Below are positions 697 to 19,800 of a stretch of DNA of 64,000 bases, one piece after another. A program made the translations under genes and the position numbers. A model generated the notes under the pieces. The model saw only the letters and a list, made by a program, of their open reading frames with translations. It made no database searches and had not been told where the DNA came from. This DNA is from Bemisia tabaci. Its lineage: Eukaryota > Arthropoda > Insecta > Hemiptera > Aleyrodidae. Where the stretch lies: assembly GCF_918797505.1 (NCBI RefSeq), contig NC_092801.1:27744477-27808476 (forward strand). Reading direction: 5' to 3'. The first letter of the stretch is position 1. Every line of letters starts with the position of its first letter.

Positions 697-3061
697 CGCA
701 ATGAAACCTGGATCTCCAGGATTCAATATTCCTTTATTCATGTCAAACAGGACTTTACCAGCATCGAAGTAACGCCGTAGGTTCTCGAGAGATTCATCTG
801 CCACTCTCACGAACTCCAGGAATTCGCCCGTGACGTTGCTTTTGGGCGCTTCTGGGTACCAGATGCGCCCTTTCCAACCGTTCGACTCCCCCGATGTAAC
901 ATGTACTATACTACATGCCCTTTTGCCTTATGGGTAATGACGCCATTCTGGTACACCCGGGAAAAATTGGATTTTTTTCTGCATCTGGTATTCGTAAAAG
1001 TTTTCGTGAAATGTTTTGCTTTTAAGCATAACAATCTCGCACGGACGTTTTACCTGGTTAAAGTATTTTAGGGCCTCCTTATGCTTTAAATACTTATATC
1101 CGAGGCAGTACTTTCAGATCGATTTGAAAATATTACGAACAGTCACGTGATCTCTTCATTTTAGTGACGTATTACTGTGCTACTTTGTGATTGGTTCATT
1201 TTCTTGGCGCAGCATCGACACGTCAGCTGTTTGCGGCATTGAGCGGAAGGTTTAAGGTTATGTCATGGACCAAGAGAATGAATAAGGACCCCCAACTCCA
1301 GTTAGCGGAGACATTAGCGCTGCCTGCGTTCACGCCGTGAATATGGGTCCAGCCAGCGCCGATGTCACCGCCGGCCGGCCGGTCCCTCTCTTCCCCGCGA
1401 CCCGCGCTTCCCCTCCCCATTGCTGAACTCCTCTTCACGCGGCCCCGCGACCTGCGCGCCCTACCTCGCGGCGTCGCGACGCCGCTGTCCGCTAGATCGC
1501 GTTGACGCACCAGCTTTAGAGGTTCCGCCGCTCTTTCCCGTCGTCTGATTTACAGTGAATCCTTTATGTTTCCATTCACCACTGACTAAAATTCATCACA
1601 AAATGCTTGTGGAAAGTTTCAGGACTTCGCGGTCGATCTGAAGTTTTGAAGGGTTTTGCGGTAAAAGAATCCCACTTTAAATTCCAGCTTCGTCAGTCTT
1701 CGGGTACATAAGTTGGTAATAATATGCTTTGACAAAGAAGCGCCCTTCAACGCTTGGGCGTTGGAACTGCTTGTTTAGGTTTGCAGCCAGCCCTACCACC
1801 CTCTTTATAGCAGCTTTTCGGCTGGTTTCGACGGTCATAAGGCCGGCTAGTAATTCATCATAGCTTCGAATCGGTGTGGCTGTTGAAGTCGGCTGCAAGG
1901 AGTTAGGATGTCAATTAATTAAGCTCAAATAAGTGTAAATGCTATTATATACCCTGTTTGAATTTTCCGAACTGCACTGTGAAGCAACACGAAAGAATAA
2001 CGATTTAATTTTTTTTACTGCAAGACCTAAAATTATTGGTGCTGGGTCATTTGTCCTAAAATTGTCTTTCTTACCACAAGTTTTCCTGATACCTTTTACT
2101 GCTCGTTTTTTTGTCCCATTACAGTAAATTAGGTACTCTACAGTAAATCCCACGAGTGAGATTTTCTGCTGGTCGCTTTTTCTCTAAGGATATTTGTCCT
2201 AATTGTAATTGGAACTTTAACATGGGGAGTTTAGAGGAAAGAGTTTGCGACCTAACCTTCCACACGTACTTAGATCGGTTTCTAGGAGACACACCCTCCC
2301 ACTATTTTAAAGTATATTTTTTTGGATTTACTGATAGCTCAATTGAATTTAGGACAAATACCTTAAGGAAATAACTCAGTAAGATATACTCGTAGGACGC
2401 ACTGTAGCGAGAAAAAAAAGAATAGGAAAGAAGTGTTAGGAAAACTTGCGATGGGAAAATTCTATTTAGGAAACATAACATGCCACCGAAATTTTATTGA
2501 AGCTATGAATTCGATACATGTTCGGTGCACGGAAAAAAATAATTCACTATCGCACGTAAAAGTGTCCTTGTCATAAATAAGTAGATGAAAGTATTATTCA
2601 AAAATAGAATTTCACAATCACATCAGTGTTTTTTTCCTGTCAAGTATGATTTTATTATAACAAGGATTCCAATTATAAATGTAGAGAGCTTTTCTTTCAT
2701 TGCAGCAAAAGATGTTTATAAAAAGAAAATCATAATTGTGGCAATGTAATTTTTATATGAGTCTTCAGTTTGTAATTTTTCTTGCGAAAGTGATGTATTT
2801 TCTATGTGCGAACAAATAGATTCAAATAAGAACGAAAGAAAGAGGCTAAAAACAATTCTTGGTTTCAAATGCACTCACCAATTTCAAACTGTTTGAAATA
2901 TTGCTACTTATTTTTGGGCTATTAATCTATAAGATTATTTCTTTTCTCAACTCATTCATTCGCATGATTTTTTTCCCCAATCAAATCAAACCGTCCATAC
3001 TTACTGATGCCTCAAGAGATACAAGAATCAGCGCTACAGGGCACACTAACGTTAAAATCAT
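697..3061 (-). pseudogene. Tandem gene 6 (type B), exon 2 interrupted; exon 3 outside the window
   Basis: The signal exon 3005-3061 (MILTLVCPVALILVS...) and its promoter box look intact. Exon 2 begins normally after TTGCAG at 1892 (SYDELLAGLMTVETSR) but loses homology near 1746; read on, it ends in a stop at 1677. The missing C-terminal half (SNVTGEFLEFVRVADESLEN, then LRRYFDAGKVLFD) lies at 843-697 and ends at a good GTAAGA donor. The two halves are thus split by about 0.9 kb of foreign DNA (roughly 844-1745), with 9-bp inverted ends GGGCGCTTC and GAAGCGCCC. Dropping exactly that interval leaves one open frame, though about ten residues longer than in its relatives. No exon 3 is seen in 1-696, so it must lie beyond the window. 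Either a recent insertion broke the gene or the insert is spliced out; the former is likelier. Confidence 0.7.
844..1745. mobile_element. Insert splitting exon 2 of gene 6
   Basis: About 0.9 kb lies between two halves of one exon. It has short inverted ends (GGGCGCTTC and GAAGCGCCC) and a GC-rich stretch at about 1330-1500. No transposase or clear target duplication is visible, so its class is unknown and its exact ends are tentative. Confidence 0.45.
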
Positions 3062-3118
3062 ACTTTGGACGCACGTATAAATTCAAGGAACAATTCAAAT
3101 AAAACGTGTACTTGATTT

Positions 3119-3140
3119 GAGCTTATCAAATACGATCTGA
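3119..3140 (-). promoter_or_regulatory. Shared promoter box, gene 6
   Basis: Reads AGATCGTATTTGATAAGC, 60 bp before the ATG. The leader ACGTGCGT before the start is also kept although exon 2 is broken. Confidence 0.55.
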
Positions 3141-3411
3141 TATGATTCAATAGTCTTACACGACAAGCTGAGCAGTCACATAGGTTTGACACCATCATTT
3201 CAAAATTTACCATATTTTCATCAAAAACAAATGTTCCTCCATCCCCTTTTCTCCCCCGGATATTCTGAGACATCGCCTTTTAATCGAATAGGTGAATCTT
3301 ATGGCCTGAGACAGGAGCACTCTATCTTCGGTTGAAAACATAGGAATCATGCATAAACTAGTCTCTGTGAGATGCTTTACTCTACGTTTCAACCGTAAAT
3401 CGATCTTTACA

Positions 3412-5084
3412 TTACATACCTTCTTTAATAGGGTTTTCTTTATTTTTGGCCTTTTCCAACTCAACTTTTAATTGTTCTTCAAGAGGAGTCACCACCTGTT
3501 CACTTTGTTTGATGATGTCCATCACAGGTCGCAGCACGCTCAACATGTCCTGTGGAAGACATCCCTCACCAGACTGTAAATTTTCTTTTATTTTTGCCAG
3601 CCTACGCATTTGCCCTTTCAAGTAATTTTCCTCTCTCAGGAGATAAGTTTTCTAAAACAAAGATATATTTTATGAAATCTTGGCGTTAATAAGTAGTGAG
3701 GTATGCAAGAACACGTTTCCACCAAAAAAAATCCTTTCTTGGATTTTTTTCTTCGGCATTGCGTAAATGTAAGAGAATTCGCAGTTTAATGGAGGTATGG
3801 AAGTATTTAAATAGTCAAAACTAAAAGAAGAAAATTAAAATCTTAGTTAAAATCGTTTAGACTCTCAAGTAAATATTTAAAGACGGGGCCTCTGGTCTAA
3901 GTTTTAAAATTTCAGTCTTGAAATTTCAAAAATGTCCGATTTACATTATTTTCTCTTATTTTTTACCTGTCCCTTACAGACACGCTGCTAATGTCGATAA
4001 GTGAGAAGTAAGTTCCATGCAACGTATGATTTATACTTGTTTGTGCCAAACTTTAGTCTCAGAAGACACACATGAATCTAGCCTTGCAACTTACAAAATA
4101 TCTTACAGTAACACGATGGATGAGCCAATGAGCACATTTCATATAGATTAGAAAATGTTAAAATCGCCTCTCTCTCTCTCTCTCCCGCTCTCCCCCCTCC
4201 CCCCCTCTCGCTCCCTCTCTTTCTCTCTATGATTGGTTAATCGGTCAATCCATCTATTTGAGGGTGCCTTGATAAAACTAAGTCATCAGCACCTTGAAAA
4301 AATGGTATTGATTCTGGCTATAATAAACTATGCAAGTTCTAACGATATCACCTAAGATAGTTTTGATTAATTTAAAGCAAAAAAGATGAGAGTTCTTCTT
4401 ACCAAATTTACATCTTCCTCCAGGAGGTTCGATTCTCCCTTTTCGAAGTCCAGCTTTACCTTACCAGCGTCAAAATAGTGTCGTATGTTTTCGAGTACAG
4501 TGTTTGCGTGCCCTATAGCCTCCAAAAAATTCAGCGCCCCGCTGCTTTTCTGGTTCGTGGCCACCTTTTTTGCCTTATTTATGGCATCTGTTCGCATAAT
4601 TTCCAAGGCTATGAAAGAATCTAGTATTTTGTCAAAGCTTAGACTTGACGGTACTGCGGTAGGCTGCAAGAAGATAAAATATAATTTTTTTAAGTTCGAA
4701 TAAGTATAAATGTTACAATATCCGCATGTTTTTAAATTGTATTATTCTTACCTTTTACAATGGTAGATTTGTGTTTACTTAAACCTGAAAATATAATGGT
4801 GATGGCGCATACCTTATCCTGATCTGTTTTTATTAGAAAAGAGGAAAAATAAAAAAGAAAGAGTGTAAAAAATTGATTTAACCACATCCTTGATTTTCAA
4901 TCGTCAATTTAAACCTTTTAAGCTCTGCTGCTTCATTTTAGACCCTTAGTTTAATGCTCTCTTTATTAGTTTTTATTTTGAACTTCATTCCTTCCCATGA
5001 ATCCATACCGTGATCTACACTTACCGAGGCCTCAAGGAAAGATGCAAGAATCAGTACAACAGATGACACTGGTGTTAAAATCAT
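3412..5084 (-). CDS. Tandem secreted-protein gene 5 (type A), three exons
   Basis: Coding exons are 5025-5084 (20-residue signal peptide MILTPVSSVVLILASFLEAS), 4403-4663 (87 residues) and 3412-3651 (79 residues plus stop), all phase 0 with GTAAGT and GTAAGA donors. The product is 186 residues. Exon 2 has SFDKILDSFIALEIMRTDAI and HANTVLENIRHYFDAGKV; exon 3 begins KTYLLREENYLKGQ and has LPQDMLSVLRPVMDIIKQSE, then an acidic-basic tail ending KEGM. One cysteine is present in exon 3. As in gene 3, the stop codon overlaps a perfect GTATGT donor-like sequence. Gene 6 starts 351 bp downstream, nearly the same spacing as between genes 1 and 2. Confidence 0.85.
4166..4231 (+). repeat. Pyrimidine (CT)n microsatellite
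   Basis: CT-rich simple repeat within intron 2 of gene 5 (between exons at 4403 and 3651). Confidence 0.9.
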
Positions 5085-5141
5085 ACTTTTAGCGTATGTA
5101 TAAAAGTGGGGGAAAAAATCAACTAAACTGCAGTATAGGTT

Positions 5142-5160
5142 AATCTTATCAAAAACAATC
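5142..5160 (-). promoter_or_regulatory. Shared promoter box, gene 5
   Basis: Reads GATTGTTTTTGATAAG, 60 bp before the ATG. As in gene 3, a further matching block (gacagtca then tgacaaacc on the plus strand) extends upstream, so type-A promoters share more than the core. Confidence 0.5.
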
Positions 5161-6326
5161 CGTACGCGCGGACAGTCATGGATGACAAACCGACTGGGAG
5201 CATTACCTAACTTAAAATTGCCGCTGAGAATTATTCACTCCATTTTTACTAGTTCATTTAGACCACTTTACCAGGATGAAAGTCATGTAAGTATCACATC
5301 AGCGATGATCAATAAATCGTATGGGTGGGGTCTAGATTCCTTTGATCGCATTCCGAGAATCGTGATACATTTTTGTAACTACTTGCGGCATCATTTCTAC
5401 TGGATAAGAAAAGAAAAGAAAATTGATGTCGCACAAAAACGGTTGGCTGATATTTAATACAAACAATTACCAGTGCTAGACGCAAATTAGGGCTGGTGAT
5501 TTGTTGCAGTTGATGCACCATTCGCTTACGTAGCACAGTGCAAGAAAAGTATTGAAATAAAGTTGCGATTTAATTATATAAATGAAACTGTATTTTTTTA
5601 TAGCCATTGAAATTGCAATACTTTTACAAAATTTGGTCAGTAATCGTTAATTTTAAACAAACGATAAGATGAGTTTAATTGATCAGAAAAGTAGGCAACC
5701 AGCAATTCAAAAACAAATCGCTACTTATGACATGGTTGATTTGGAATAGATCTCAATTGCAGGTGCCCCTTCAACCAGTAGGTATGCAACATATACATCA
5801 CTGCGATGTGTTGTATGCAAGTTTTTTTTTGGGGGGGGGGGATGTGTAATAAAAGACAAAGATGCTTAGAGTACTTTTTTACGTAGCGTTATAAAAATTG
5901 TGCAAAATTTACAAAATTCACGTGAAATTCAACCCTCTGATCTGAAAAAAGATGCTCGTAAAATACTGCAAAAGATAAAACTTTTAAAGACAATTTGAGT
6001 CAGGTAGGTTTTTTCCTCACTTCGTGCATTCATTTTGTCCCTCTTCATTTTTTTGTAACAAAACGCTGCAACTCCTGGCAAGACTATTACGTAGTCTTGA
6101 ATATTACTCGAAATTCTTAAATATGGGTCATTCTTTGTTGCTATGTTGGAAGCTTCCTGCTCGAACCTCCCTGGAACTGAATATAAACTATTCGTGACCG
6201 ACCGTATGGTCAAAGGATTGGTTGTCACTCTTTTTTTTTAAAATCTTTACGATAGGACACGGAAAGCTTCGATTATAGTCGATATCTATTCTTCAAGTCA
6301 TGATCTAAAATTCGTATATTGCAGTC
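5161..6326. other. Interval between gene 4 (B) and gene 5 (A)
   Basis: No coding exon found. The block at about 5755-5820 recurs in the other B-to-A intervals (13070-13140 and 20940-21020), so it belongs to the duplicated unit. A T-then-G homopolymer run sits at 5822-5840. Confidence 0.55.
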
Positions 6327-8368
6327 TTATGTGGATATTGGTTTGGACTTCTCCAATTCCTCTTGGGATTTTTTTGCAAGTAGAATTAATGCAAGTTCAC
6401 TTTGTTTGATAAACTTGATAACTGCCCCCAGAACCCTATACATGTCTTTAGGCAGATTAGGCACTTGAGACTCTATTGTTTTGTAAGTTGCGGATAACTT
6501 AGTCAGTTGATCATTCAAATATGTCTCCTTCCGCAACAGCTCAGTTTTCTGTAACAGAGTTGAAATTTCAAACTTAATTTAATGAGGCACTGAGGTATTA
6601 ACGGAAAAATTTTCGAAAATAAGTTAGTGTTCTTGCGTTCAGAACTATTTTCTGCATTCCTAATTTAAATGTCGGTGCAATTGTTGGATCATTGTTTCCT
6701 TTCATCTGCTGCTCACCTGTATTAAAATGTCTGTTAATGAAAACAAATTAGGTTGCTATATACGAGTCAGTGACGCGCCTTTTCAACACATTGTGTCGGA
6801 GTTCACTATTTGGTTTCGTTTCCTTTCTTTTTTTTGCTGAGTACAAGCAATTAAAGCTGTGCTAGTTCCAATGAACTAATCCAAACGTGATATCTTCAAC
6901 CTTTGTCTCGCCAATTTGATTCTTTTAAACCAAAGTGTAGATAAAATTTTGTAATAAGAGCTTACCTATGGAGGGAAACAAATAATCAGTGTAAAAGCAA
7001 AGAAGAGAAGGAAGGCGTGGAGGAGTAAATGGTGCAAGACAGAGAAATAAACTAAAGAAAAAGGACACGCGCAGAAAAATACGCCAAGGGACAAAAAAGG
7101 GAGGAAAGAAGAAGGAAAAGTAAAGGTAGAAGAATTGAAAGAGGAAGATCAATAAGAAGAAGTATAAATTCTTCATGTTTCTCTTCTTCCTCTTCTGCTC
7201 CTAATTCTACTTCTTCTCTTTCTACATTCTTTTCTTCTTCTTCTTCTCTTGGCGCTTATTCTCTTATTCCTCCTAATGTCTTTCTTTGTATCTCCTTTCT
7301 TCTGTCTTCCGATTTCTAATGCGCTCTCATCCATCGTAGGCTAGGAATACTGCGAACTTAATGGGTCTGCAAACTAGGGATAGAGTAAAGAATATGTAGT
7401 CTTACTCTCACCGCATGTAAATCTGTTTCATTGAGTTTCGATTTTCCTTTATTCTTATCGAACATGACTTTACCAGCATCAAAGTAGCGTCGTATATTCT
7501 CGAGCACTTCATCTGCCTCTCGCACAACCTTCAGAAAGTTGAGTGTTGCGTTGCTTTCAGCCCCTGTAGCCACCTCTTCAGCTATCTTAATGGCGGTCTT
7601 TCGGTTGTTTTCTATGACCATGAATTCATCCAATAATTCATCAAAGCTTTTGCTCGGCGTCGTGAAAGTTGGCTGCAAGAAGTTGGATTCTAGTTTATTG
7701 ACTCAATTAAGTACGAAAGTAACATTATTTGCATTTTTCATTTCCTATGTTAGACGAGAGAACATAACATCGCTTTAAGGTCAGGAAACTGAATTGCACG
7801 ATTTTATTTTTGCCCAGCATGTTGCTGATTTTGGCGAGTGTCAGTGGTAAATGCAGGGAAACTTTCAGTCAGAAACACTGAACTACTTCCAAGCATAAAT
7901 GAAATTTGCAAACAAAAATTCAACGACGTTAAAATACATAGTTAAGTTCTTTTTCCCCAAAAGATGACGATGTGCTCCAGTGAAAATCTAAGTTTTGTAG
8001 TGTCCACGTGTCCACGTTCAGTGCTACACAACCTCCCCCCCCCCCCCCTCCCCCGAAAAAAATGCAAGTGTTGTTTTTATCACACAATTTTAAACTATTT
8101 TGTAGGCCAAATGTGCTTGACCGCACTTCGAGCCATATCATTCAAAAAAATGAAAAAAGAGCACTGAACATAACCTAATACTTGGTACTCAGGTGCCAAC
8201 TTTTAACTCATGTAATTGTTGCTGCTGAGATGTTTACCAATGACTGAGTAAATTTTAGTGATTTTTGTACCTTAATCTTATATTCCATCTATCGCAAACT
8301 TTTACACTTACCGAGGCCTCAATTGATGCAAAGATCAACACTTTAGAGCATAATAAAGTTAAAATCAT
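6327..8368 (-). CDS. Tandem secreted-protein gene 4 (type B), three exons
   Basis: Coding exons are 8312-8368 (19-residue signal peptide MILTLLCS...SIEAS), 7412-7672 (87 residues) and 6327-6548 (73 residues plus stop). Junctions are phase 0 with donors GTAAGT and GTGAGA and acceptors TTGCAG and TTACAG. The product is 179 residues. Exon 2 has SFDELLDEFMVIENNRKTAI, VVREADEVLENIRRYFDAGK and an N-A-T sequon; exon 3 has LRKETYLNDQLTKL and KDMYRVLGAVIKFIKQSE and ends KPIST. The mature chain has no cysteine; the only one lies in the signal peptide. Intron 2 holds a striking purine-rich then pyrimidine-rich block. It is the type-B partner of gene 3. Confidence 0.83.
6962..7312. repeat. Purine-rich then pyrimidine-rich block in gene 4 intron 2
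   Basis: The plus strand is almost all A/G from about 6962 to 7170, then switches to C/T with CTTCTT repeats to about 7312. The halves are loosely complementary. Confidence 0.75.
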
Positions 8369-8423
8369 AATTTTAACGCACGTAAAAATATGAAGAACAG
8401 TGAAAATGAAACTTGCACTTTTT

Positions 8424-8443
8424 GAGCTTATCAAATACGATCT
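8424..8443 (-). promoter_or_regulatory. Shared promoter box, gene 4
   Basis: Reads AGATCGTATTTGATAAGC, 58 bp before the ATG; identical over this core to the gene 6 copy. Confidence 0.55.
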
Positions 8444-8525
8444 AATACGCTTACATAGTCTCGGACGACAAGCTGAGCAGTCAAAGGTTCGACACCGTCA
8501 TTTCAACATTTAGCGTATTTTTATC

Positions 8526-8551
8526 AAAAAAAAAAAAAAAAAAAAAAAAAA
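8526..8551. repeat. Poly(A) run upstream of gene 4
   Basis: Uninterrupted A tract. Sequence on both sides (aggacaaggc near 8570 and ccttgtcctcc near 8784) forms a loose inverted repeat, suggesting a small insert at about 8530-8810. Confidence 0.6.
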
Positions 8552-8999
8552 ATGAAGGGCTTGGAGGACAAGGCACATAAGTACAGATTTTAAAGAAATT
8601 GATTTATCAAAGATTTCAAATAAAACTAATCTTGATGCATTCTCTGCGAAAAATTCGCTCCCAAATTCTAGTTTTTAAGCATCAAAAAGTCAGTTTTAAC
8701 TTTCTTTCCGCCAAAGGTATCCAAGTAATTTCGAAACTTCAAATACATATTTTTCAAAATAGCAAAAAATGCACTCGTGAGCCTTGTCCTCCAAGCCCCT
8801 CAAATGTTCTTTCATCCCTTTTTCTCATTTGAATCTTCTGAAACATCGTTTTTTAACCATATGGGTGAATTTTATGGAGTGAGAGAGGGGCAATATTCGA
8901 AAATAATAACCATACATGAACGAGTCTCAGCGAGATGCTAAACACCAAACTACTGAAACTCTATGCCTCCCGTAATTTAAATATCTAAATTTTTGTATA

Positions 9000-9458
9000 C
9001 AGGGTGTCTCACGAAAAAGGAGCCACCTTGAATATCTGGCGAACGGGTTGGAATTTCGAAAAACGGTAAAAGACGTGTTCGTTTATATCGAGGGGGACAC
9101 CTTTTGGCGTATTTGACATTTTCTCAAACCGCGGGGGGGGGGGGGGGCGGGGCGGGGGGTGCCCCCCCCGTAAATCGAAATTTTCAAATGGCACCCCTAC
9201 TTTTTTATTTCAGAAATCAATTCTACGCAAAAAAACAAGCCACCCTATCCAAACCGGATGTAAATCGGACAATTTTTCAGCGATTGGCAGAGGTTCAAAC
9301 ATTTTTTTCATGCTCTTTTCAAAAATTCCCTACGCTCAATGGAATTGCCGTATCAAACCAAACTCTCCGCCAAAAAAATTCTTAAACATTGCACTTTCAA
9401 TTAAAAATAAGAAAAAGAAAGGATACACCCCCAAAAAACCAAAAAAAAACCCCCCCCC

Positions 9459-9513
<55 letters not shown>

Positions 9514-10141
9514 TACTTGAAAACTTGAGCACGCGGAGCCCTTTTTTGCGATATTGAAATGCGTTTGACCGAACATATCCGAGGGGCGCTCATCGGGAGG
9601 GAGTGGTAAGTGTTTGACACGAATTATTATTTTTGTTTCTGAAGCATAAGGAACCATGTCCGTGAAGAAACAGCTAAGTAGAAATACAAATGAATTACCT
9701 TTTTTTAAGTGAGTTTCAATGATTTGAGCTGGACCTTGATACTTCTGAGGACGCTACTTTTCTGCGGTGCGTGGCAATTTTCCGAAGTTCATTTTGGATG
9801 ACCCACGAAGAATGAACGGAGAGTTTACCCTCCTCCTTTGTTGAAAATGAAAGCTTCCACTTACAACTTCTGATTAGTTTACTAATCTCATATCATTGAA
9901 AATCTGGATCAATTGAAATCATCATACTCAAATCATTGAAACTCACTTAAAAAAAGGTAATTCATTTGTATTTCTACTTAGCTGTTTCTTCACGGACATG
10001 GTTTCTTATGCTTCAGAAACAAAAATAATAATTCGTGTCAAACACTTACCACTCCCTCCCGATGAGCGCCCCTCGGATATGTTCGGTCAAACGCATTTCA
10101 ATATCGCAAAAAAGGGCTCCGCGTGCTCAAGTTTTCAAGTA

Positions 10142-10189
<48 letters not shown>

Positions 10190-10640
10190 GGGGGGTTTTT
10201 TTTTGGTTTTTTGGGGGTGTATCCTTTCTTTTTCTTATTTTTAATTGAAAGTGCAATGTTTAAGAATTTTTTTGGCGGAGAGTTTGGTTTGATACGGCAA
10301 TTCCATTGAGCGTAGGGAATTTTTGAAAAGAGCATGAAAAAAATGTTTGAACCTCTGCCAATCGCTGAAAAATTGTCCGATTTACATCCGGTTTGGATAG
10401 GGTGGCTTGTTTTTTTGCGTAGAATTGATTTCTGAAATAAAAAAGTAGGGGTGCCATTTGAAAATTTCGATTTACGGGGGGGGCACCCCCCGCCCCGCGC
10501 CCCCCCCGCGGTTTGAGAAAATGTCAAATACGCCAAAAGGTGTCCCCCTCGATATAAACGAACACGTCTTTTACCGTTTTTCGAAATTCCAACCCGTTCG
10601 CCAGATATTCAAGGTGGCTCCTTTTTCGTGAGACACCCTG
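9000..10640. mobile_element. 1.64-kb palindromic (foldback) element
   Basis: Two near-identical arms (9000-9728 and 9927-10640) lie in inverted order around a 198-bp spacer. The ends read CAGGGTGTCTCACG and its complement and are flanked by TATA on both sides (TA or TATA target duplication). The arms contain a long A/T homopolymer next to a C/G run. No transposase is present, so it is non-autonomous. A dispersed repeat kept intact at 16872-17003 and 21945-22083 shows the unfilled site. Confidence 0.85.
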
Positions 10641-10757
10641 TATACACCCATCTCCCAAATTCTTTGTAAAGACGTTAATAGCCTGGGGTGCTGAATGTCA
10701 ATGAATAAAATAACTAACTAATTAACTGTATGTCTAAGCCGTGAATTGAAATTTAAA

Positions 10758-12410
10758 TTACATACCTTCATCAATTGTGTTTTCCTTTTTTTTTGTATTT
10801 TCCAAATTAATTTGTAACTGTTCTTCAAGAGGAATTACCGCCTGTTCACTTTGTTTGATGGAGTCCATCACTGGTCGCAGCATATTCAACATATCCTCTG
10901 GCAGATTTTTCTTTTCACTCTCTATTTTTTTGCAGATATCAGCAAGCAGAAACATTTGTTTATTCAAATAATTTTCCACTCTCAGGAGATAAGTTTTCTA
11001 AAACAAATATATATTTCATGAAGTTTGAAAGTCATTGAATGGGATATGAGAGAACACGTTCCCGTCAAAATGAAATATTCCTTGGATTTTTTACTTCCTC
11101 TGCATTGCGTCAATCTCGATTAAATTGCAGTTCGATGGAGCTACTAAAGTATATTAAAAGTTAAAATTCAAAAAATAAAAATAAAAATCATAGTTAAGCT
11201 TTTTAGTTACTCTAGTAAATATTTGAAGATCAGAAGCCTTTGGTGTAAGTTTTAAAATTCTAGTCTTGAAATTTCATAAGCGTCTGAGTCCTATCCTCTT
11301 CCATAATTTTTTACCTGCTCATTATAGGCGTGCTGTTAATGCTAACGTGAGAAAAGTATTTTGCATGCAACGTATTGCTCGGAAAATACGAATTAATACA
11401 TCCTTCACCGAAAAAAAGCGTTAAATGTTAATCGCTGAAATTGTGGTACTACTCAAATTAGTTGGATGATATGGACATTTCCAATTAATTGCGGTAGTGT
11501 CGCAACATTTGGGTTAGTAACCTAATTTATGAAGGTACTACCACAATTATTCGGAAATGTCCATATCATCCCACAACCCCGTGGTCTTCTCTATCAGAAA
11601 AGTTTGAAGCTCTCTTTCTCAGTGATTGGTTGGTTGATAAATACTCGTCCATTTATTTGAGGGTGCCGTGACAAAACTAAGCCATCAAGACCTCAGAGAA
11701 GGGGTATCAATTTTGCATGCAAGTTCTAAAAATATCATCTATAATCGCAAAAAATATAATGTTCCTTCTTACCAAAAGTACTGTTTCTTTCGGAAGTTGT
11801 GATTCTCCTTCGACAAAATCCAGCCACATCTCACCAGCGACAAAATAGCGTCGTATATTTTCAAGTACATAATTCGCGTATCCTACGTCCTTCAAGAATT
11901 TCAGCGTCACCTTGCTTTTCCGGTTAGCAGCCACCTCTTCTGCTGTTTTTGTGGCGTTCGTTCGGTTCATTTCCACGGCTATGAAAGAATCTAGTAATTC
12001 GCTAAAGGTTTGGTTCGACGGCATTGAAGTAGGCTGTAAGAAGTTGAAATATACTTGCACAATTTTTAAGTTCCAGTAAAAAGCCTTTTTTTTACTGTTC
12101 ATAATAGAAATATTTTGTTTACCTAAACCTGAAAATATCGTGGTGATGACACATTTTTATTCCTATCTACCAGAAAGAACGTAAAATAAAAAAGAGAGCG
12201 TGTAAAAATTATACCTCATCTTTAATTTTCAGTCGTCAATTTAAACTTTTTAAGCTCTGCTGATTTAGGTTTGACTCTTAGTTTAATTCTTCGACCCTTA
12301 TATTTTAGTTTGAATTTCATTCTTTGCTATGAGTAATTATCTATACTTACCGAGGGCTCAATGGAAAATGTAAGGATCAGCACAACGGTTGACACTGAAG
12401 TTAAAATCAT
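10758..12410 (-). CDS. Tandem secreted-protein gene 3 (type A), three exons
   Basis: Coding exons are 12351-12410 (20-residue signal peptide MILTSVSTVVLILTF...), 11773-12033 (87 residues) and 10758-10997 (79 residues plus stop), all phase 0. The product is 186 residues. Exon 2 has FSELLDSFIAVEMNRT, a GYANYVLENIRRYF segment and N-Q-T, N-R-T and N-A-T sequons; exon 3 starts KTYLLRVENYL and has LPEDMLNMLRPVMDSIKQSE. The only mature cysteine is a single one in exon 3, so disulfides are unlikely. Within the otherwise invariant YFDAGK motif this copy reads YFVAGE. The last codons are GAA GGT ATG TAA, where GTATGT could also act as a splice donor. Intron 2 contains a hairpin MITE at 11461-11577. A 1.64-kb palindromic element separates this gene from gene 4. 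Confidence 0.83.
11461..11577. mobile_element. Hairpin MITE in gene 3 intron 2
   Basis: Inverted arms start GTTGGATGATATGGACATTT and end with its complement (through ccacaac). A second copy lies at 18954-19086 in a different intron of gene 1, so the two inserted independently. Confidence 0.75.
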
Positions 12411-12466
12411 ACTTTTCATGCACGTATTAATGTAGAAAACAATTCAATCAAACGCGAGTGTGGTTT

Positions 12467-12487
12467 GAGCTTATCAAAGACAATCTG
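12467..12487 (-). promoter_or_regulatory. Shared promoter box, gene 3
   Basis: Reads AGATTGTCTTTGATAAGC, 59 bp before the ATG, followed by the leader TAATACGTGCATGAAAAGTATG split around the start codon. Confidence 0.5.
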
Positions 12488-13136
12488 TACGTGCAGACAG
12501 TCATACATGACAAACCTACTATGGGTACATTACCTAACTTCAAATTGCCGCTGAGAATTTTATTCATTCCATTTTTACTGGTTCATTTAGACCACTTTAC
12601 CGGGATGGAAGCCTAGTAAGCTTCATCAGCGACGACCAATAGATCGTATAGGTGGTTTTAAATCGATTGATTGCATTCCGAAAATGTTGAAAACATTCTC
12701 TCATTTGGGAAATTATTTCCACGAATAAAGAAAATTGATAGCACACAAGAACGTTTAATTGGCTGATATTTAACTCTAAAAATTATCGGTGCTAGACTCA
12801 AATTAGGGCTGGTGATTTGTTTTAGTTGATGCGCTGATCATACAAGGAGGACAGTGTAAGAAATATTGAAATAAAGTTACTATTAAATAGAATGGGACTA
12901 AAATTTTTTAGCATATAATTGCAATATGTTTACAAAATTTGGTCAATAATTGTCAATTTTAAACAAACAGTAAGATGAGTTCAATTTAGAAAAGTACGCA
13001 ACCAGCAATTCAAAAAAAAATTCTAAATTATCTAAGTCTCAGCTCAATTGGAATGGATGTCAACAATAAAAGGTGCCCCTTCAATCAGTAAGTAAGCAAC
13101 ATACACAACTTTGCGGTATAATAGTATCAAAGTAGC

Positions 13137-13308
13137 ACTGCCGTGCCGTAGAAAAAACACCTTCAAGAACTATAAGTAAAATTGCGAGCAAAATTATCTG
13201 AAAAATTGGAAGAAAAATATTTACAAATTTTCCCGAAAATTCATGATTTACCTGAGGAAATTTGGCAACGCCTCAAGGTTTCTACGGCTTTCTTCCTTAT
13301 CACGGCAG
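13137..13308. mobile_element. MITE family G copy (CTGCCGTGC ends)
   Basis: Starts ACTGCCGTGCC and ends CACGGCAG, with family inner motifs such as aatttggcaacgcc. It splits the duplicated block shared with about 20940-21020. Confidence 0.75.
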
Positions 13309-14019
13309 AATAGTATAGAGTGTATATAGTACATATAGTAACTTATAATAACTTATAACTTATATAACTTATAATAGTACATCAATATCGATACAGTGTG
13401 TGATATAATATCACACATATTATTTAAAGGAGCATACCATTTAAATAAGTCTTTGTTCAAAACATCCAATGTAGATACAACTCTCTAACTTAAATCTGTC
13501 TAGTTGGTACTTTCAAGTCTATTTCTACCATACATCATTCTCTAAAACAGATTCAATCACCGGCCACTTTAGTATCTGTTCCAATGCATATTTTATTTGA
13601 AACTAGGGAAAATTCCGACGCAGAAGTTGTTGGTAATATTGCGTTGTGAGGTACTTTTCCGGCTGCCAATTTGGGTCTGGTTCTAAAGTATCGCATCCCT
13701 GAAGCTGAGATGCCAAGTACTCCATTTCCATTCACTTCCCTGCTTCACAGAATCCTTACTCATTTACCCCAAAATGTGTTGTGGTCACATCTTGGTCTTG
13801 TAATCTTTTTCTTGGGTTCTTTACACAGATCAAATGCAGACAAATGAATGAGCTCATCACCGTTGAAGCGATGTAACGCATATTTAGTTGATAAAATTAT
13901 ACGCTATCAAGAAAACCAAAAAATATCAACTGTGATGAGTCTTGGACCAAGACTCATCTTGGTGATTCAGGCTTAATTTCTCCTTTTTAGTCGCGGATAC
14001 ATTTTTTCATTTTATGGTT

Positions 14020-17000
14020 TTACCCGGACATCGGTTTGGTCATGGTCACATCCATATCGATTTTGAATTGATTTCCAAGTGGAATCAGTGCCTGTTCACT
14101 CTTCTTCATTGCCTCAATTACAGGTAGCAGCATGCTGTAAAAATCCGTTGGCACTTTTGCCACTTCAGTTTGCATTTCTTTTGAGGATGCGGCCAACCTT
14201 TGTAGCTGATCATTTAGATATGTCTCATTTCGCATGATCATGGTTTTCTGAAACAAGATGAATCGCAGTTAAACACTAATTGAGCTTTGAGATTTTAAAG
14301 AACACATTTTTATGGAAATAAAATGGGTTTCTTGTCTTTTGTATTTCTGCACTCTGATGTTTCTTCAGCTCCAAATGGGGTAAAATAAACAAAGCCAGAA
14401 GCAGAAAAAAGTTCACTATTTCTTTCTAGAATTTTCTTACGTTGAAAACGATTCACATAACGCGAATATCAAAACTTAAGAACTCATAAACTTCTAAATA
14501 GGGCACGAACAAGTATTTTAAACACAGACCGATTGGAAGTTGGGTTATTCAAAATACGTGATTTGTATTTTTGCCATTTTACCACTGTTAATTGTGAGCA
14601 CTTGTATCTTGTTAAGGTGATTTGCAGACCTCCAGTCGTGTAATTTGTTTTCTTCGTAAAATTTTGAAGCGATAACATGTTGCATAGTGCTATAATTTAT
14701 AACTTTGTTTAGGAGCTCACTCAACTGCATGCATAGTTGGATGCAGAGACAATAGGTTGGATGTAGGGACAAAGTGTAAACATTTAAAAACAAAATCAGA
14801 GGATAAATCATAAACTCTAATGAAGAATTTAAAATACACGTGACCACCAAGGGGCAGTGGACATTAATTCATGGGGGCAAATTTTTCTGTACAGCGATTT
14901 TTGCCGAGTTGGGGTGAATGATCGGATTTCAAAAAGAACGCTTTGTATAGTGTCCTGAAAAGAATTTGCGATTGATTAAGTTAATTATTATGTTTAGAGA
15001 GAGTACGTGGTGTTACATTGTGATTCGGCAATTTCAATCCCAAACTTATGTGATCAAAATTTTTAGTAATTTTTCATTGAAACAACGTTTCGACAGGGTA
15101 CGTCCGCAATCACATATCTCATTTGCGGTGTCTAAAAAATCTCCGCCTCTATGTTAATTTTTTTTTTAAAAGGAGAAGAAATTGACAGGTGGTGGTTGCT
15201 CAAGATCAAGAAGACGCGGAGTACATGATGCGCAAGTTAGTAGAAGAATATCGGAAGTGGGGTTTGGAAGTCAGCATATCCAAATCTGAGAAGATGACTT
15301 TTGGTGGTGATCAGCAAAGCATTGAGTTGGAGGATGGGCAGCAGATCAAATGCTGCGAGCACTTAAAGTACTTGGGAGTGCGGTTGACCCAGGATGGAAG
15401 GACGGATCAAGCTATCAGGGAAAGGAACACCTTAGCAAGGAAGGCTATAGCGATGTTAAATGGAATCCTCTGGGATCAGCGGATTTCCAAAGATAACAAG
15501 AGGAGGATATACAACGCTGTAGTAAAAAGTATATTAACATACGGATGTGAAGTTTGGCAGCTGAAGAAACGGACACAGGATATGCTAAGAGCAACGGAGA
15601 TGGATTTCTGGAGAAGGTCGGCAGGAATTTCTAGGTGAGATCGGGTCCGTAATGATAGAGTGCGTCAGATAATGGAAGTCGAAAATGACATCGTGTTCGA
15701 CGTCATGACCAAACAACTTGTTTGGTATGGTCATGTCAATAGGATGACGGAAGAGAGGCTGCCAAAAAAGATGCTTGATTGGGTTCCTCCTGGGAGGAGG
15801 CGTAGGGGACGCCCAGTGAGAGGTTGGCGACAGGGGGTGTTAAGTGAGATGAGGGAGTGTCAACTCCCTGATAACCTGTGGGAAGACCGAGCTTTGTGGC
15901 GATTAGGTGTCGCAAAGCGCCAAAGAGCGCTATAACAGCGACTCGTATGTATGTAAGAAATTGACATCATTTCTTGAAGTTTTTGCATATTTTCCTCGCA
16001 CAAGGAAGAAAAATCACGTCAGTCTAACGAATTGCTGTTGAGTAGTTTTCCGTTTAAAAAACAAAGTCTGACAGGAAGTCTTGCCGACTTACATCGTCGA
16101 TTTATGGGACTTCACGTCAAACCACCACAATTTCAGCTTTGTTTGACATTTGAAAGTGATTTGTCCAAACACACGCTATGCAAATTTTTAACATACTCAT
16201 CTAAACTCATTCATTTGAAGCAACAGAAATATTATGATTCTTACCGCTAGCATATCTTGTACTGTAAGGTTCGACTTTCCAGAATTAAAGTCGAACAAGA
16301 CTTTCCCAGCATCAAAGTAGTGTCTTATTTTCTTGAGTACGTCATCTGCTTCTCGCACCACCTTTAGGAATTTAAGCGCCTCTTTGCTGTTTTCCTTCGT
16401 GGCCCACTTTATTGCTTCATTTATGACGGCCTCTCGGATGGGTTCTTCAGCTATGAATGCAACTAATAAATCGTCATAGCTCTCGCTCAACGGTATTGAA
16501 GTTGGCTGAAAACAAGTTAGAATTTCAGATCATTATCTCAAATAAGTATGAATGAAACATTACTTGCATTTTTCAAACTAAGTATGCCCCAGGAATAACG
16601 CAGGTTTCACAATGCAAGTTCCTCTTGAGTGCGATGCAACTCGATGAAAAAATGCTATTTTTTTTTCTTTGAAAAACTTAACAATTTAATGTGAATACGA
16701 AATTTTTGACGATCAGCACGAATGGTCAAAAAAAGAGGCAATGTAATGGGGAGGAACCAAACATAACCCTAATACTTTGATTTTCAGGTGCCCAAATTAA
16801 ACTGCCTCAAATAATGCTATTTTGACTCATATTAAATATATTTACCATCTCTTAATAATATATTTATCCCCCTACCGAAATTCTGAAACGCTTCACCTCT
16901 CTTCATTTAAAAATCTAAATTTTCGTATATACTCCCATTAATAAAATTCTCTGTAAAGACGTTAATAGCATGTGACGCTAAATGTCTTAAAATATACTAA

Positions 17001-17112
17001 CTAACTAACTATTCCCCTAAAATTAATTCCGTATTGGTCCCAATGTCATACTCACCGAGGCCTCAATAAATGCAAGTATTATCGCTATAGAGTACGACAA
17101 AGTTAAAACCAT
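14020..17112 (-). CDS. Tandem secreted-protein gene 2 (type B), three exons
   Basis: Coding exons are 17056-17112 (signal peptide MVLTLSYS...FIEAS, 19 residues), 16245-16505 (87 residues) and 14020-14247 (75 residues plus stop). All are phase 0, with donors GTGAGT and GTAAGA and acceptors TTTTCAG and TTTCAG. The product is 181 residues. Exon 2 holds SYDDLLVAFIAEEPIRE, VVREADDVLKKIRHYFDAGK and one N-L-T sequon; exon 3 holds ETYLNDQLQRL and KKSEQALIPLG and ends in KPMSG, like gene 4. No cysteine is seen in the mature part. Intron 2 is about 2 kb because a 5'-truncated LINE sits in it on the opposite strand; intron 1 carries a repeat with a (TAAC)n tail. The subtype markers (19-residue signal exon, READ motif, ETYLNDQL) pair it with gene 4 and the broken gene 6, not with its neighbours. 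Confidence 0.8.
15188..15954 (+). mobile_element. 5'-truncated non-LTR retrotransposon (RTE/BovB-like) with 12-bp target duplication
   Basis: The element is bounded by perfect copies of AAGAAATTGACA (15176-15187 and 15955-15966). It begins just after the place where the reverse transcriptase catalytic Asp-Asp would be and ends in TGTATGTA repeats. Truncated 5' end, simple-repeat tail and target duplication are the marks of target-primed reverse transcription. It lies antisense inside intron 2 of gene 2, within an older dispersed repeat. Confidence 0.9.
15189..15935 (+). pseudogene. C-terminal part of LINE reverse transcriptase, one in-frame stop
   Basis: Open frame of 249 codons broken by a single TGA at 15636-15638, in SR*DRVRND, most simply a CGA-to-TGA change. 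Visible parts: a KCCEHLKYLGVRLTQDG segment, SILTYGCEVWQL, and the C-terminal QLVWYGHVNRM followed by GRRRRGRP and WEDRALWRLG, all typical of the region after the catalytic core in RTE-like and related LINEs. The fingers/palm motifs and endonuclease are missing, so the copy is dead. Clade assignment is from motif style only. Confidence 0.85.
16872..17003 (+). repeat. Dispersed repeat with (TAAC)n tail, copy in gene 2 intron 1
   Basis: Contains gtaaagacgttaatagc and ends in taactaactaac. Other copies lie at 21945-22083 and at 8950-10728, where it is split by the palindromic element. The tail suggests retroposition. Confidence 0.65.
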
Positions 17113-17173
17113 ACTTTCAGTGCACGCACACATTAATGAGAGAAACAATCAAAATGAAATGTGTGTACAGTTT

Positions 17174-17193
17174 GAGGTTATCAAAAGCGATCT
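17174..17193 (-). promoter_or_regulatory. Shared promoter box, gene 2
   Basis: Reads AGATCGCTTTTGATAACC on the gene strand, starting 64 bp before the ATG, the longest spacing of the six. Confidence 0.5.
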
Positions 17194-17466
17194 AATCACA
17201 GTTTTTAAGGCGAGTTTTTGTTTCCAACTAGACCGACTACGGCCGAGTTGAATTTTCTGTAATAACAATCAAGGTGTTTTTTAAATAAAATTTCCCTGGC
17301 TCTAATTTTTTTCCTTGACCCTCCTTGCAAATCCTCCGGATATTGTCATTGTTATGATCTGAAGATAACACGCTATTCAAACCCGAAATATTAATGATAA
17401 ACGCTTTTGTTGGTAAGACGTTATCCGCCATGTTTGTGCCTTCAGTAGGCTAAAAATTCACTGACC

Positions 17467-19330
17467 TCATAAGAAATGTAATCTTCTTTTGGCCTCCTCT
17501 ATATCGATGTGTAGGTGTTTTTCAAGAGGAGCCACGGTCTGTTCACTCTGTTTGATGTTGTCCATTATTGGCCTCAGCATGTCCAACAAGTCCTCTGGCA
17601 GATCTTCTTCCCTCGCCTCTAAATCTTTGATAATTTCGGCCAGCTTATGCATTTGCACACTCAAGTAATTCTCATCTTCTAGGATATGTGTTTTCTGGAA
17701 CGAAGATGATTTTCACGTCATTCAATAGTGAAATACCGGACCATACATCTCCACGAAAAATGGAGGTTTCTCAAATTTCCTCGAAACAAACCAACCAATC
17801 GTCCTCTTTGTCCAGGATCAGTTATAGGGGAGGGATCGGCGCTTCATCTACTGGGTCTTATTATTCTTGGGCAGGGGTTTGAGTTCGACTGGAGCTATAG
17901 AATTTTTGATAAAACTAAACATTAAACTACAAATTTTAAAATTCCAGACATGAAATTCAAAAAACGTCTTGTGAGCTTCCCTTGTGTCCCTGTTTTTACT
18001 TATCCATTATAATTGCGATGCTGATAAGAGAGATTGCATTGCATGCAACATATCGGTGGTGTATAACTACCAGACCATGTATCACGGTTTGCGACATTGC
18101 AGACTTCCTGTCATAATTTTTTTTTGGATGGAAAACTACCCAACGTCCTCTCTTGAAAACTTACGAGATTTTTCTTCTTTGTGGAACGAACGTGGAGTTT
18201 TTTAAATACCGCAAATGAGATACGTTGTCTGGTAATTTCACCGTCTATATTCATCTATGTGTATGTGTGTACATGACAGTTTAACCCCGTAATACACGAA
18301 CGTAAACGGTACAAAATATCCAAAACAGTGACGGGCATGATAAGCTTGTTGCATATCCAGTTTAAAATTCTTAAATTTTGTCTCGGTGTCTGGCTATCAT
18401 AAGCTATGCAGGTTTCAACGAAATCATCGAAACAAAGTGAAAGAATTTCATCTCACCGCAATTACATCCTCCATTGGAAGGTTTGATTCTACTCTCTCGA
18501 AGTCCAGTCTGATTTTACCGGCATCGAAATAGCGTCGTATGTTTTCGAGGGCATAATCCGCGTGTCCTACAACATCCAAAAATTTGAGCGTCACGTTGCT
18601 TCGCCGGTTCGTGGCCACCTCTACGGCCCTCCTTATGACGTCCAATCGGTTGTTTTCCAAGGCTATGAATGAATCTCGCAATTTGTCAAAACTTATACCT
18701 AATGGCGTTATTGAAGGTGGCTGCAAAAAATTGAAATTCAAACCTGCTTAGTTTAAATGATCATGCTAATTTTTGCATCTATTTAAGTTTTCTACGCTCC
18801 AAATTTCACCATAAAAGATTTTTTTTGCCTTAACTTGAATGTACTTTTGCAATAACAAATTTTATATTCATGTCCAGCAGACGAAAATTACAATAACAGA
18901 GGGGAAAAAAGGGTCAAGGGTTATCATCTAAATTTGTGGTACTGCCCCAATTCGTTGGATGATACGGACATTTCCTAATTAATTGTGGTAGTACTGCAAT
19001 ATTTGGGTTAGTAACCTAATTTATTGGGGTAACAATTAATTGGGGCATTACCACGATTAATTGGAAATGTTCACATAATCTAACAACCTCGTGCTCTTTT
19101 GTCCGTGAATAAAGAAAAGAAAGGAAACATGACCACATTCTTGTTTTTAATCGTCAATTTTAAACTAGTTTAAGTATTTCTATTATTTTCTGTCTTATCA
19201 GTCATCCACATCTTTTATTTCACAGAATTAAAAACTATGTATTACGTATGTAAAACTATGTATAACTTACAGAGGCCTTGATGAAAGGTGTAAGGGTCAA
19301 CACAACAAATGACACCGAAGTTAAAAGCAT
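17467..19330 (-). CDS. Tandem secreted-protein gene 1 (type A), three exons
   Basis: Coding exons are 19271-19330, 18457-18720 and 17467-17694. All junctions are phase 0 with GT-AG borders (donors GTAAGT and GTGAGA; acceptors TTTTTTGCAG and TTCCAG). The 183-residue product starts with a 20-residue hydrophobic signal peptide (MLLTSVSF...FIKAS). Exon 2 (residues 21-108) carries FDKLRDSFIALENNR and ALENIRRYFDAGKI; exon 3 (109-183) carries LPEDLLDMLRPIMDNIKQSE. There is no cysteine in the mature chain, one N-V-T glycosylation sequon, and a charged, probably all-helical composition. Secretion is inferred from the signal peptide. The end (RRLHFL, TGA) differs from the KEGM end of the other type-A genes. 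Intron 1 holds a 133-bp hairpin MITE. The type-B gene 2 starts only 355 bp downstream. I do not recognise the family; a salivary or gut secreted protein is a guess. Confidence 0.85.
18070..18245. mobile_element. MITE family K copy in gene 1 intron 2
   Basis: Inverted ends (ccagaccatgtatcacgg and gagatacgttgtctgg). Relatives lie at 42665-42930, 63740-64000 and around the LINE at 15100-16140. Confidence 0.6.
18954..19086. mobile_element. Hairpin MITE in gene 1 intron 1
   Basis: Copy of the 11461-11577 element; arms GTTGGATGATACGGACATTT and complement. Confidence 0.75.
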
Positions 19331-19387: not shown

Positions 19388-19406
19388 ACATTATCAAGAC
19401 GATCTT
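19388..19406 (-). promoter_or_regulatory. Shared promoter box, gene 1
   Basis: On the gene strand the six array copies share an element close to AGATCGTATTTGATAAGC (18 bases), 58-64 bp upstream of the ATG. Its TATTTGATAA core may serve as a TATA-like element; that role is inference. This copy starts 60 bp upstream of the ATG and is the most diverged. Confidence 0.5.
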
Positions 19407-19464: not shown

Positions 19465-19800
19465 ACTTCCGCTGCCGCGCCGCGTTGACCGCGCTGTGTT
19501 TGGAGAAATGCTTGAAGTAATCCTACAGTCTTGTAGGCGTTATGCGTTTCACGCCGACCACTGCTGAACGCACTGTGTTCGACGCAATGCGTGAAGTATT
19601 CATACAGTCTTGTAGGCGCTATGCATTTCGCGCTGACCGCACTGTTTGGCGCAATGCGTGAAGTAACGTGCAATCTTGAAGGCGCTATGCGTTTCACGCG
19701 CCGACCGCTCTTGACCGCACTGTGCTTGACGCAATGCGTGAAGTATTCATGCAGTCTTGTAGGCGCTATTTTGTGTTACATGCCGACCGCCGCGCAGAGG
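19465..19800 (+). repeat. Satellite-like tandem repeat, about four 70-80 bp units
   Basis: Units carry GCGTGAAGTATTC, AGTCTTGTAGGCGCTAT and CCGACCGCACTGT. The same unit forms an array at 60400-60625, 41 kb away. Confidence 0.75.

Follow-up and report, generated by a model that had tools for sequence, protein, structure and literature searches.

A putative duplicated A+B block in an alternating array of secreted-protein genes of the whitefly Bemisia tabaci

Secretoglobins are disulphide-linked proteins, and the mouse Abpa and Abpbg genes have expanded as two-gene modules whose members lie head to head. Aphid bicycle genes consist of many small exons and encode cysteine motifs. Whiteflies are major crop pests with many secreted proteins that lack known relatives. 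We analysed a window of 64 kb of the Bemisia tabaci genome (contig NC_092801.1, positions 27,744,477 to 27,808,476), in which six secreted-protein genes of two subtypes, A and B, occupy positions 697-19330 on the minus strand in the transcription order A1-B1-A2-B2-A3-B3. The best supported reading, to which we assign a probability of roughly 0.5, is an A+B block of genes for secreted four-helix bundles that has been duplicated and is co-regulated and probably linked by splicing.

The androgen-binding protein of mouse is reported to belong to a two-subtype secreted family with 30 Abpa and 34 Abpbg genes, the products of which dimerise (PMC4274081). Tandem clusters of whitefly orphan genes are described as regulated on virus-infected tomato (PMC5426028), and BtRDP is presented as an Aleyrodidae-specific salivary protein reported to have no gene homolog in NCBI nr (PMC13143284).

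Gene order and subtype trees

The genes of the array are oriented head to tail. Five of the six, A1, B1, A2, B2 and A3, are intact and consist of three coding exons each, with all ten introns in phase 0 and reading frames that stay open over the splice junctions. The first exon encodes the signal peptide and comprises 20 codons in A1-A3 and 19 codons in B1-B3, exactly the lengths that an earlier note on this DNA had given. In the intact genes, exon 2 has 87-88 codons and exon 3 has 73-79 codons before the stop, yielding mature proteins of 160-166 residues with no or one cysteine. The near-equal spacing from A to B that had also been pointed out was recovered for pairs 1 and 3 (354 and 350 bases from stop to ATG); in pair 2 the distance of 2389 bases shrinks to 736 once a palindrome at 8994-10646 is subtracted. 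The sequence motifs proposed for the two subtypes needed adjustment. The gap between GHA/GYA and LENIR in the A proteins measures three residues, not two, and the B motifs are looser than claimed, with VVREADDVLKKIRHYF in B1 and VRVADESLENLRRYF in B3. The motif ETYLNDQL is present in B1 and B2, was seen only there and is not common to all B.

The alternation A-B-A-B-A-B was confirmed by the gene models, but B3 is incomplete in the window. Its exon 2 is broken into two pieces about 0.94 kb apart, and its exon 3 lies beyond the window. The pieces flank an insertion of about 0.94 kb at 844-1784 with approximate borders. In P0015 (LOC109040357), a relative from another B. tabaci record, this exon is uninterrupted and the insertion is absent; hence, intact copies exist. 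Searching the window by tblastn with 32 queries (26 database proteins, designated here by P numbers, and the six gene entries) gave 392 matches, all on the minus strand, and no family copy above 19330 or on the plus strand.

The order very likely continues as B3-A4-B4 past the window, judging from public protein models, among them one of the same assembly. P0002 and P0003 start with the last part of B3 exon 2, to which an A-type and, after it, a B-type domain are attached, and P0006 (A4) and P0009 (B4) are named isoforms of the single gene LOC109040354. Strict alternation would arise by chance in 2 of 20 orders of three A and three B genes (0.10) and in 2 of 70 orders for four of each (0.03), and is by itself weak evidence.

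The relationships of the subtypes were resolved further by phylogenetic trees of 19 domains, calculated for exon 2, exon 3 and both combined, and groupings were compared by the approximately unbiased (AU) test. The A domains formed one clade with supports of 99/98, 100/98 and 100/99, respectively. The B domains were one group in all three best trees, albeit weakly (43/78, 86/82 and 74/85). All six neighbour groupings tested (A1+B1, A2+B2, A3+B3, A4+B4, B1+A2 and B2+A3) were rejected for exon 2, exon 3 and both, with AU p ≤ 0.028, the value of 0.028 belonging to A1+B1 in exon 2. The earlier note had set a tree that groups neighbours as its own refutation; the tree built here came out the opposite way. 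Enlarging the exon 2 tree to 25 rows again gave a single A clade (99/98), with B1 and B3 as long branches of unsure placement.

The copied block, its upstream element and probable splice links

DNA similarity between pairs 2 and 3 amounts to 71.5% over 1620 columns for 11610-13115 versus 4215-5805. It was found as well for 10722-11375 versus 3376-4027, 8801-8939 versus 3228-3376, and 8306-8534 versus 2999-3231. In pair 3, the matching segments run in sequence from A3 across the spacer into B3 exon 1. In pair 2, the spacer segments 8801-8939 and 10722 onward are parted by the palindrome and about 0.1 kb resembling B1 intron 1. Because the similarity runs through the A-to-B spacer, A and B of these two pairs were copied together, in one event that took A, the spacer and B or at least its beginning. 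Past B2 exon 1, the pair 2 block is similar in exons only, and the B-to-A spacers past 13115 and 5805 did not match (z 1.6). Divergence between A2 and A3 is 0.26 in the upstream flank, 0.36 and 0.29 in exons 2 and 3, and 0.37 and 0.50 in the introns. Spacer similarity thus supports the proposal that the duplicating unit is an A+B pair for pairs 2 and 3, but not for pair 1.

The palindrome in the A2-B2 spacer is near-perfect, with arms that are 99-100% complementary. Its sides, 8944-8993 and 10657-10727, match the adjoining stretches 16874-16923 and 16944-17010 of B1 intron 1, which looks like an unfilled copy of the palindrome site. A short alike stretch occurs at 18905-19098 in A1 intron 1 and at 11412-11588 in A2 intron 2, with inverted-repeat similarity between the two, and may be a small mobile element. 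Just upstream of the array, at 19473-19790, a repeat of about 70 bases is present in three or more copies.

Each of the six genes is preceded by a promoter-like element that reads GAT[CT]G[TC] and, after a gap of zero to two bases, [TC]TTGATAA. Its TGATAA sits 65-71 bases before the ATG in every case. The pattern was derived from the same six genes, so that its absence elsewhere on both strands of the window is the only real test.

At least one public model spans each gene border from A2 through B4, and the one between B3 and A4 is spanned by P0002 and P0003 only. At the A3-B3 border, the odd tail of P0004 is exactly what an out-of-frame junction of A3 exon 3 with the beginning of B3 exon 2 would encode, and a donor after base 3420 fits this protein. 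At the A2-B2 border, P0007 opens with two residues that agree with a junction of A2 exon 3 and B2 exon 2; the corresponding donor in A2 exon 3 follows base 10766, ahead of the first stop. The start of P0007 needs an ATG-AAR before GT, which occurs once in 7673-12500, the sole stretch searched. Both donors match the consensus in 8 of 9 positions, lie just before the first in-frame stop, and represent two of the seven sites with at least 8/9 in 20 kb of the minus strand. A candidate donor with 7/9 is found one base past the stop of A1 exon 3. The B2-A3 border is covered by P0001, which has close relatives of B2 exons 1-2 followed by those of A3 exons 2-3, and P0002 holds the end of B3 exon 2, A4 and B4.

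Family, predicted fold and two-domain relatives

Profile searches yielded 17 proteins with an E cut-off of 1 and 23 with a cut-off of 10, and every match with an organism name came from Bemisia tabaci (P0017 and P0025 carry none). The array genes fit the orphan family LOC109040353/354/357/358 of this species, with profile similarity over the protein and the same arrangement of a signal exon and two further exons in phase 0. B1 is contained whole in P0005, A3 in P0004 except for its last two residues, and exons 2-3 of B2 in P0007, whereas A1 and A2 are whole in none of the 26 database proteins. Eight more single-domain relatives are available from proteins only (P0011, P0012, P0013, P0020-P0023 and P0026).

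Searching Pfam with five proteins at E up to 1 gave no family at its cut-off and listed no secretoglobin, and NCBIfam had no match for the two proteins tested. Among solved structures no sequence match to B2 was obtained (best E 0.22), and fold searches returned no standout match. The main texts searched under 11 LOC identifiers and further terms contained no account of the family. By these searches, the secreted proteins form a Bemisia family that has no known relatives. They may act in saliva or gut, as judged solely by their signal peptide and the feeding habit of the insect.

Ratios of nonsynonymous to synonymous substitution rates (dN/dS) over the mature protein ranged from 0.28 to 0.56 among the 10 pairs that the five intact genes can form, with 0.56 for A2/A3 and 0.28-0.49 for the other nine, which indicates moderate constraint. 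Public proteins, dN/dS and tree tests indicate that the array is more than a product of chance. An AlphaFold2 monomer of A3 from 16 sequences reached a mean predicted local distance difference test (pLDDT) score of 85.1 and a predicted template modelling (pTM) score of 0.75. It contains four long helices (30-57, 61-94, 117-138 and 141-178). Since the border between exons 2 and 3 falls at residue 107/108, each exon would encode one helical hairpin, and each protein is predicted to be a single four-helix bundle.

Two family domains occur in one chain in several relatives. P0018 (LOC109033347) combines domains of two different clades, with the exon 2 and exon 3 parts of both and a start inside the first exon 2. 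P0019 begins with a signal and a whole first domain, followed by a second domain without the last exon 3 part, and in P0008 two exon 2 domains are accompanied by a single exon 3. A grouping with B was rejected for the first domains (together with P0022; AU p 0.007) and for the second domains (p 0.002), and a grouping with A was not rejected for either (p 0.25 and 0.18). The fused genes would therefore not simply be a fused A-B pair. A model of a two-domain protein reached a pTM of 0.51, so no claim on an interface is drawn from it. The existence of such chains suggests that two subtypes can act in one molecule and makes an A-B heterodimer a reasonable candidate.

Table 1 Features of the A/B gene array (positions in the window).
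Feature	Position	Strand	Remark
Duplicated block, pair 2 copy	8306..13115	-	0.7 kb upstream of A2, A2, spacer and palindrome, B2 exon 1
Duplicated block, pair 3 copy	2999..5805	-	0.7 kb upstream of A3, A3, spacer, B3 exon 1
A1 promoter-like element	19391..19404	-	
A1 exon 1	19271..19330	-	signal peptide, 20 codons
A1 exon 2	18457..18720	-	helices 1-2 by analogy with the A3 model
A1 exon 3	17467..17694	-	to stop; helices 3-4
B1 promoter-like element	17178..17192	-	
B1 exon 1	17056..17112	-	19 codons
B1 exon 2	16245..16505	-	
B1 exon 3	14020..14247	-	to stop
A2 promoter-like element	12471..12485	-	
A2 exon 1	12351..12410	-	
A2 exon 2	11773..12033	-	
A2 exon 3	10758..10997	-	to first stop
B2 promoter-like element	8428..8442	-	
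B2 exon 1	8312..8368	-	
B2 exon 2	7412..7672	-	
B2 exon 3	6327..6548	-	to stop
A3 promoter-like element	5146..5160	-	
A3 exon 1	5025..5084	-	
A3 exon 2	4403..4663	-	
A3 exon 3	3412..3651	-	to first stop
B3 promoter-like element	3123..3137	-	
B3 exon 1	3005..3061	-	intact
B3 exon 2, first piece	1785..1892	-	insertion border approximate
B3 exon 2, second piece	697..843	-	

Some details of individual genes were noted in addition. An in-frame ATG lies seven codons upstream of B1 (17113-17133), and the public model P0005 begins there. Intron 2 of B1 contains, at 15189-15935 on the plus strand, two open frames that by eye resemble pieces of a retrotransposon reverse transcriptase. In B2 exon 2, a GGTAAAG within the DAGK codons (7468-7474) is a possible early splice donor, and the end of P0024 is as expected from its use when worked out by hand.

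Competing explanations and known systems

In the reading that we prefer, the copied unit would have comprised, at least once, the 5′ flank of A, gene A, the short spacer and gene B. Twin promoters would drive both genes of a pair in the same cells, and part of the expression would come from a shared primary transcript, as the donor in the last A exon would join exon 2 of the following B. The pair would be kept mainly as one transcription block, with co-secretion of an A and a B as the result.

Several observations weigh against this reading. The splice links rest on computed gene models, and no public model bridging A1-B1 or B1-A2 was seen. The A2/A3 site does not stand out under a matrix built from 12 local donors, 0.53 as-good sites being expected per 61-base window. 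The links are not only from A to B, as P0001 joins B2 to A3 across pairs, and because the P0004 junction is out of frame, such an RNA would yield no secreted B, and its A protein would end in a short new tail. A poly(A) hexamer, AATAAA or ATTAAA, within 500 bases after the stop is found in one of three A genes and one of two B genes and does not separate A from B. As for the block, similarity was lacking between the introns of B2 and B3 (z 2.7 for intron 1; z 1.3 for B2 intron 2 versus 1-696) and in the A2-adjacent part of the spacer taken alone (10647-10757, z 0.3). With the similarity ending at 13115/5805 and these introns unmatched, the upstream end of the block can be placed and the downstream end cannot. 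In the pair 1 spacer, the likeness is confined to about 75 bases before the ATG, and a similar stretch also precedes A2. A4 is closest to A3 (70% identity) and B4 to B2 (72%), and the groupings B3+B4 (p 0.0086) and B2+B3 (p 0.0028) were rejected, which together suggest that pair 4 is no plain copy of one pair. An A2+A4 grouping was not rejected (p 0.11). Faster change in B3, a long branch, could have produced this pattern of pair 4. The trees of A and B are not mirror images.

Three rival explanations and one further reading were weighed; the probabilities of the rivals and of the preferred reading overlap in part and need not add to one. It is possible, if doubtful, that the cross-gene models are artefacts, produced by automated annotation or by rare read-through among densely packed, alike exons. 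Automated pipelines can chain alike neighbouring exons, P0002 and P0003 begin inside B3 and skip exon parts, and the P0001 link runs across pairs. Yet the junctions of P0004 and P0007 differ and both fit the window base by base. The links moreover appear in differing record styles, namely PREDICTED LOC models, isoform-named models and 'unnamed protein product', which we infer to stem from separate annotation runs. Plain unequal crossing-over of a two-gene segment, with alternation as a by-product and no joint function or expression, seems rather unlikely to us. Tandem duplication of a two-gene block yields alternation unaided, the six-gene chance being 0.10 under random order. Decay of B3 beside a retained A3 and the lack of mirror-image trees would suit this view as well. 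It is at odds with the splice-linked models, the two-domain relatives and the upstream element in all six genes, though descent alone could explain the sharing of the latter.

A heterodimer, as hinted at in the earlier note, we consider unlikely; A and B would then be subunits of a secreted complex, and the block would be kept since both are needed in equal amounts. P0018 and P0019, with family domains of different clades in one chain, and the upstream element common to both subtypes argue for it. Against it stand the broken B3 beside an intact A3 in this assembly, which speaks against an obligate heterodimer, and the A and B trees, which do not mirror each other. The AU rejections (p 0.007 and 0.002 versus B) and the pTM of 0.51 of the two-domain model also count against it, and the splice links offer another reason for the cohesion of the pair. 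An improbable alternative is that the array serves as a bank of interchangeable two-helix exons, from which cross-gene splicing chains hairpins of different subtypes into one secreted protein. Such chaining would be possible because all within-gene exon borders are in phase 0, and models of this type are on record (B2 exon 2 - A3 exon 2 - A3 exon 3, and the two-domain chains). As part of that alternative, and equally improbable, the alternating pairs would mark an intermediate stage on the way from separate genes to a secreted protein of several domains that is diversified by splicing.

The locus provides a family that is undescribed in the searched literature, a clear case of pair-wise duplication and a predicted fold. 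It lends itself to a simple RNA test of whether neighbouring genes for secreted proteins are produced jointly, and two-domain genes in the same insect offer a route to ask how gene pairs become fused proteins.

Among known systems, the array resembles aphid bicycle genes in encoding fast-changing proteins of a sap-feeding insect (PMC9168663). Many small exons and cysteine motifs are absent from it. With BtRDP it shares, by description, secretion and restriction to whiteflies (PMC13143284). The orphan clusters of PMC5426028 are likewise Bemisia-only tandem genes for small proteins; their scaffold 17, however, has eight intronless genes for 88-132 residues, whereas the array genes have at least three exons and encode about 180 residues. 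Compared with the mouse Abp pairs, no sequence relation was found (Pfam, five proteins, E up to 1), the mature proteins have no or one cysteine, the genes run head to tail, and a heterodimer is only a candidate. What the array has in common with these secretoglobin pairs is a secreted family that has grown by duplication and consists of two subtypes.

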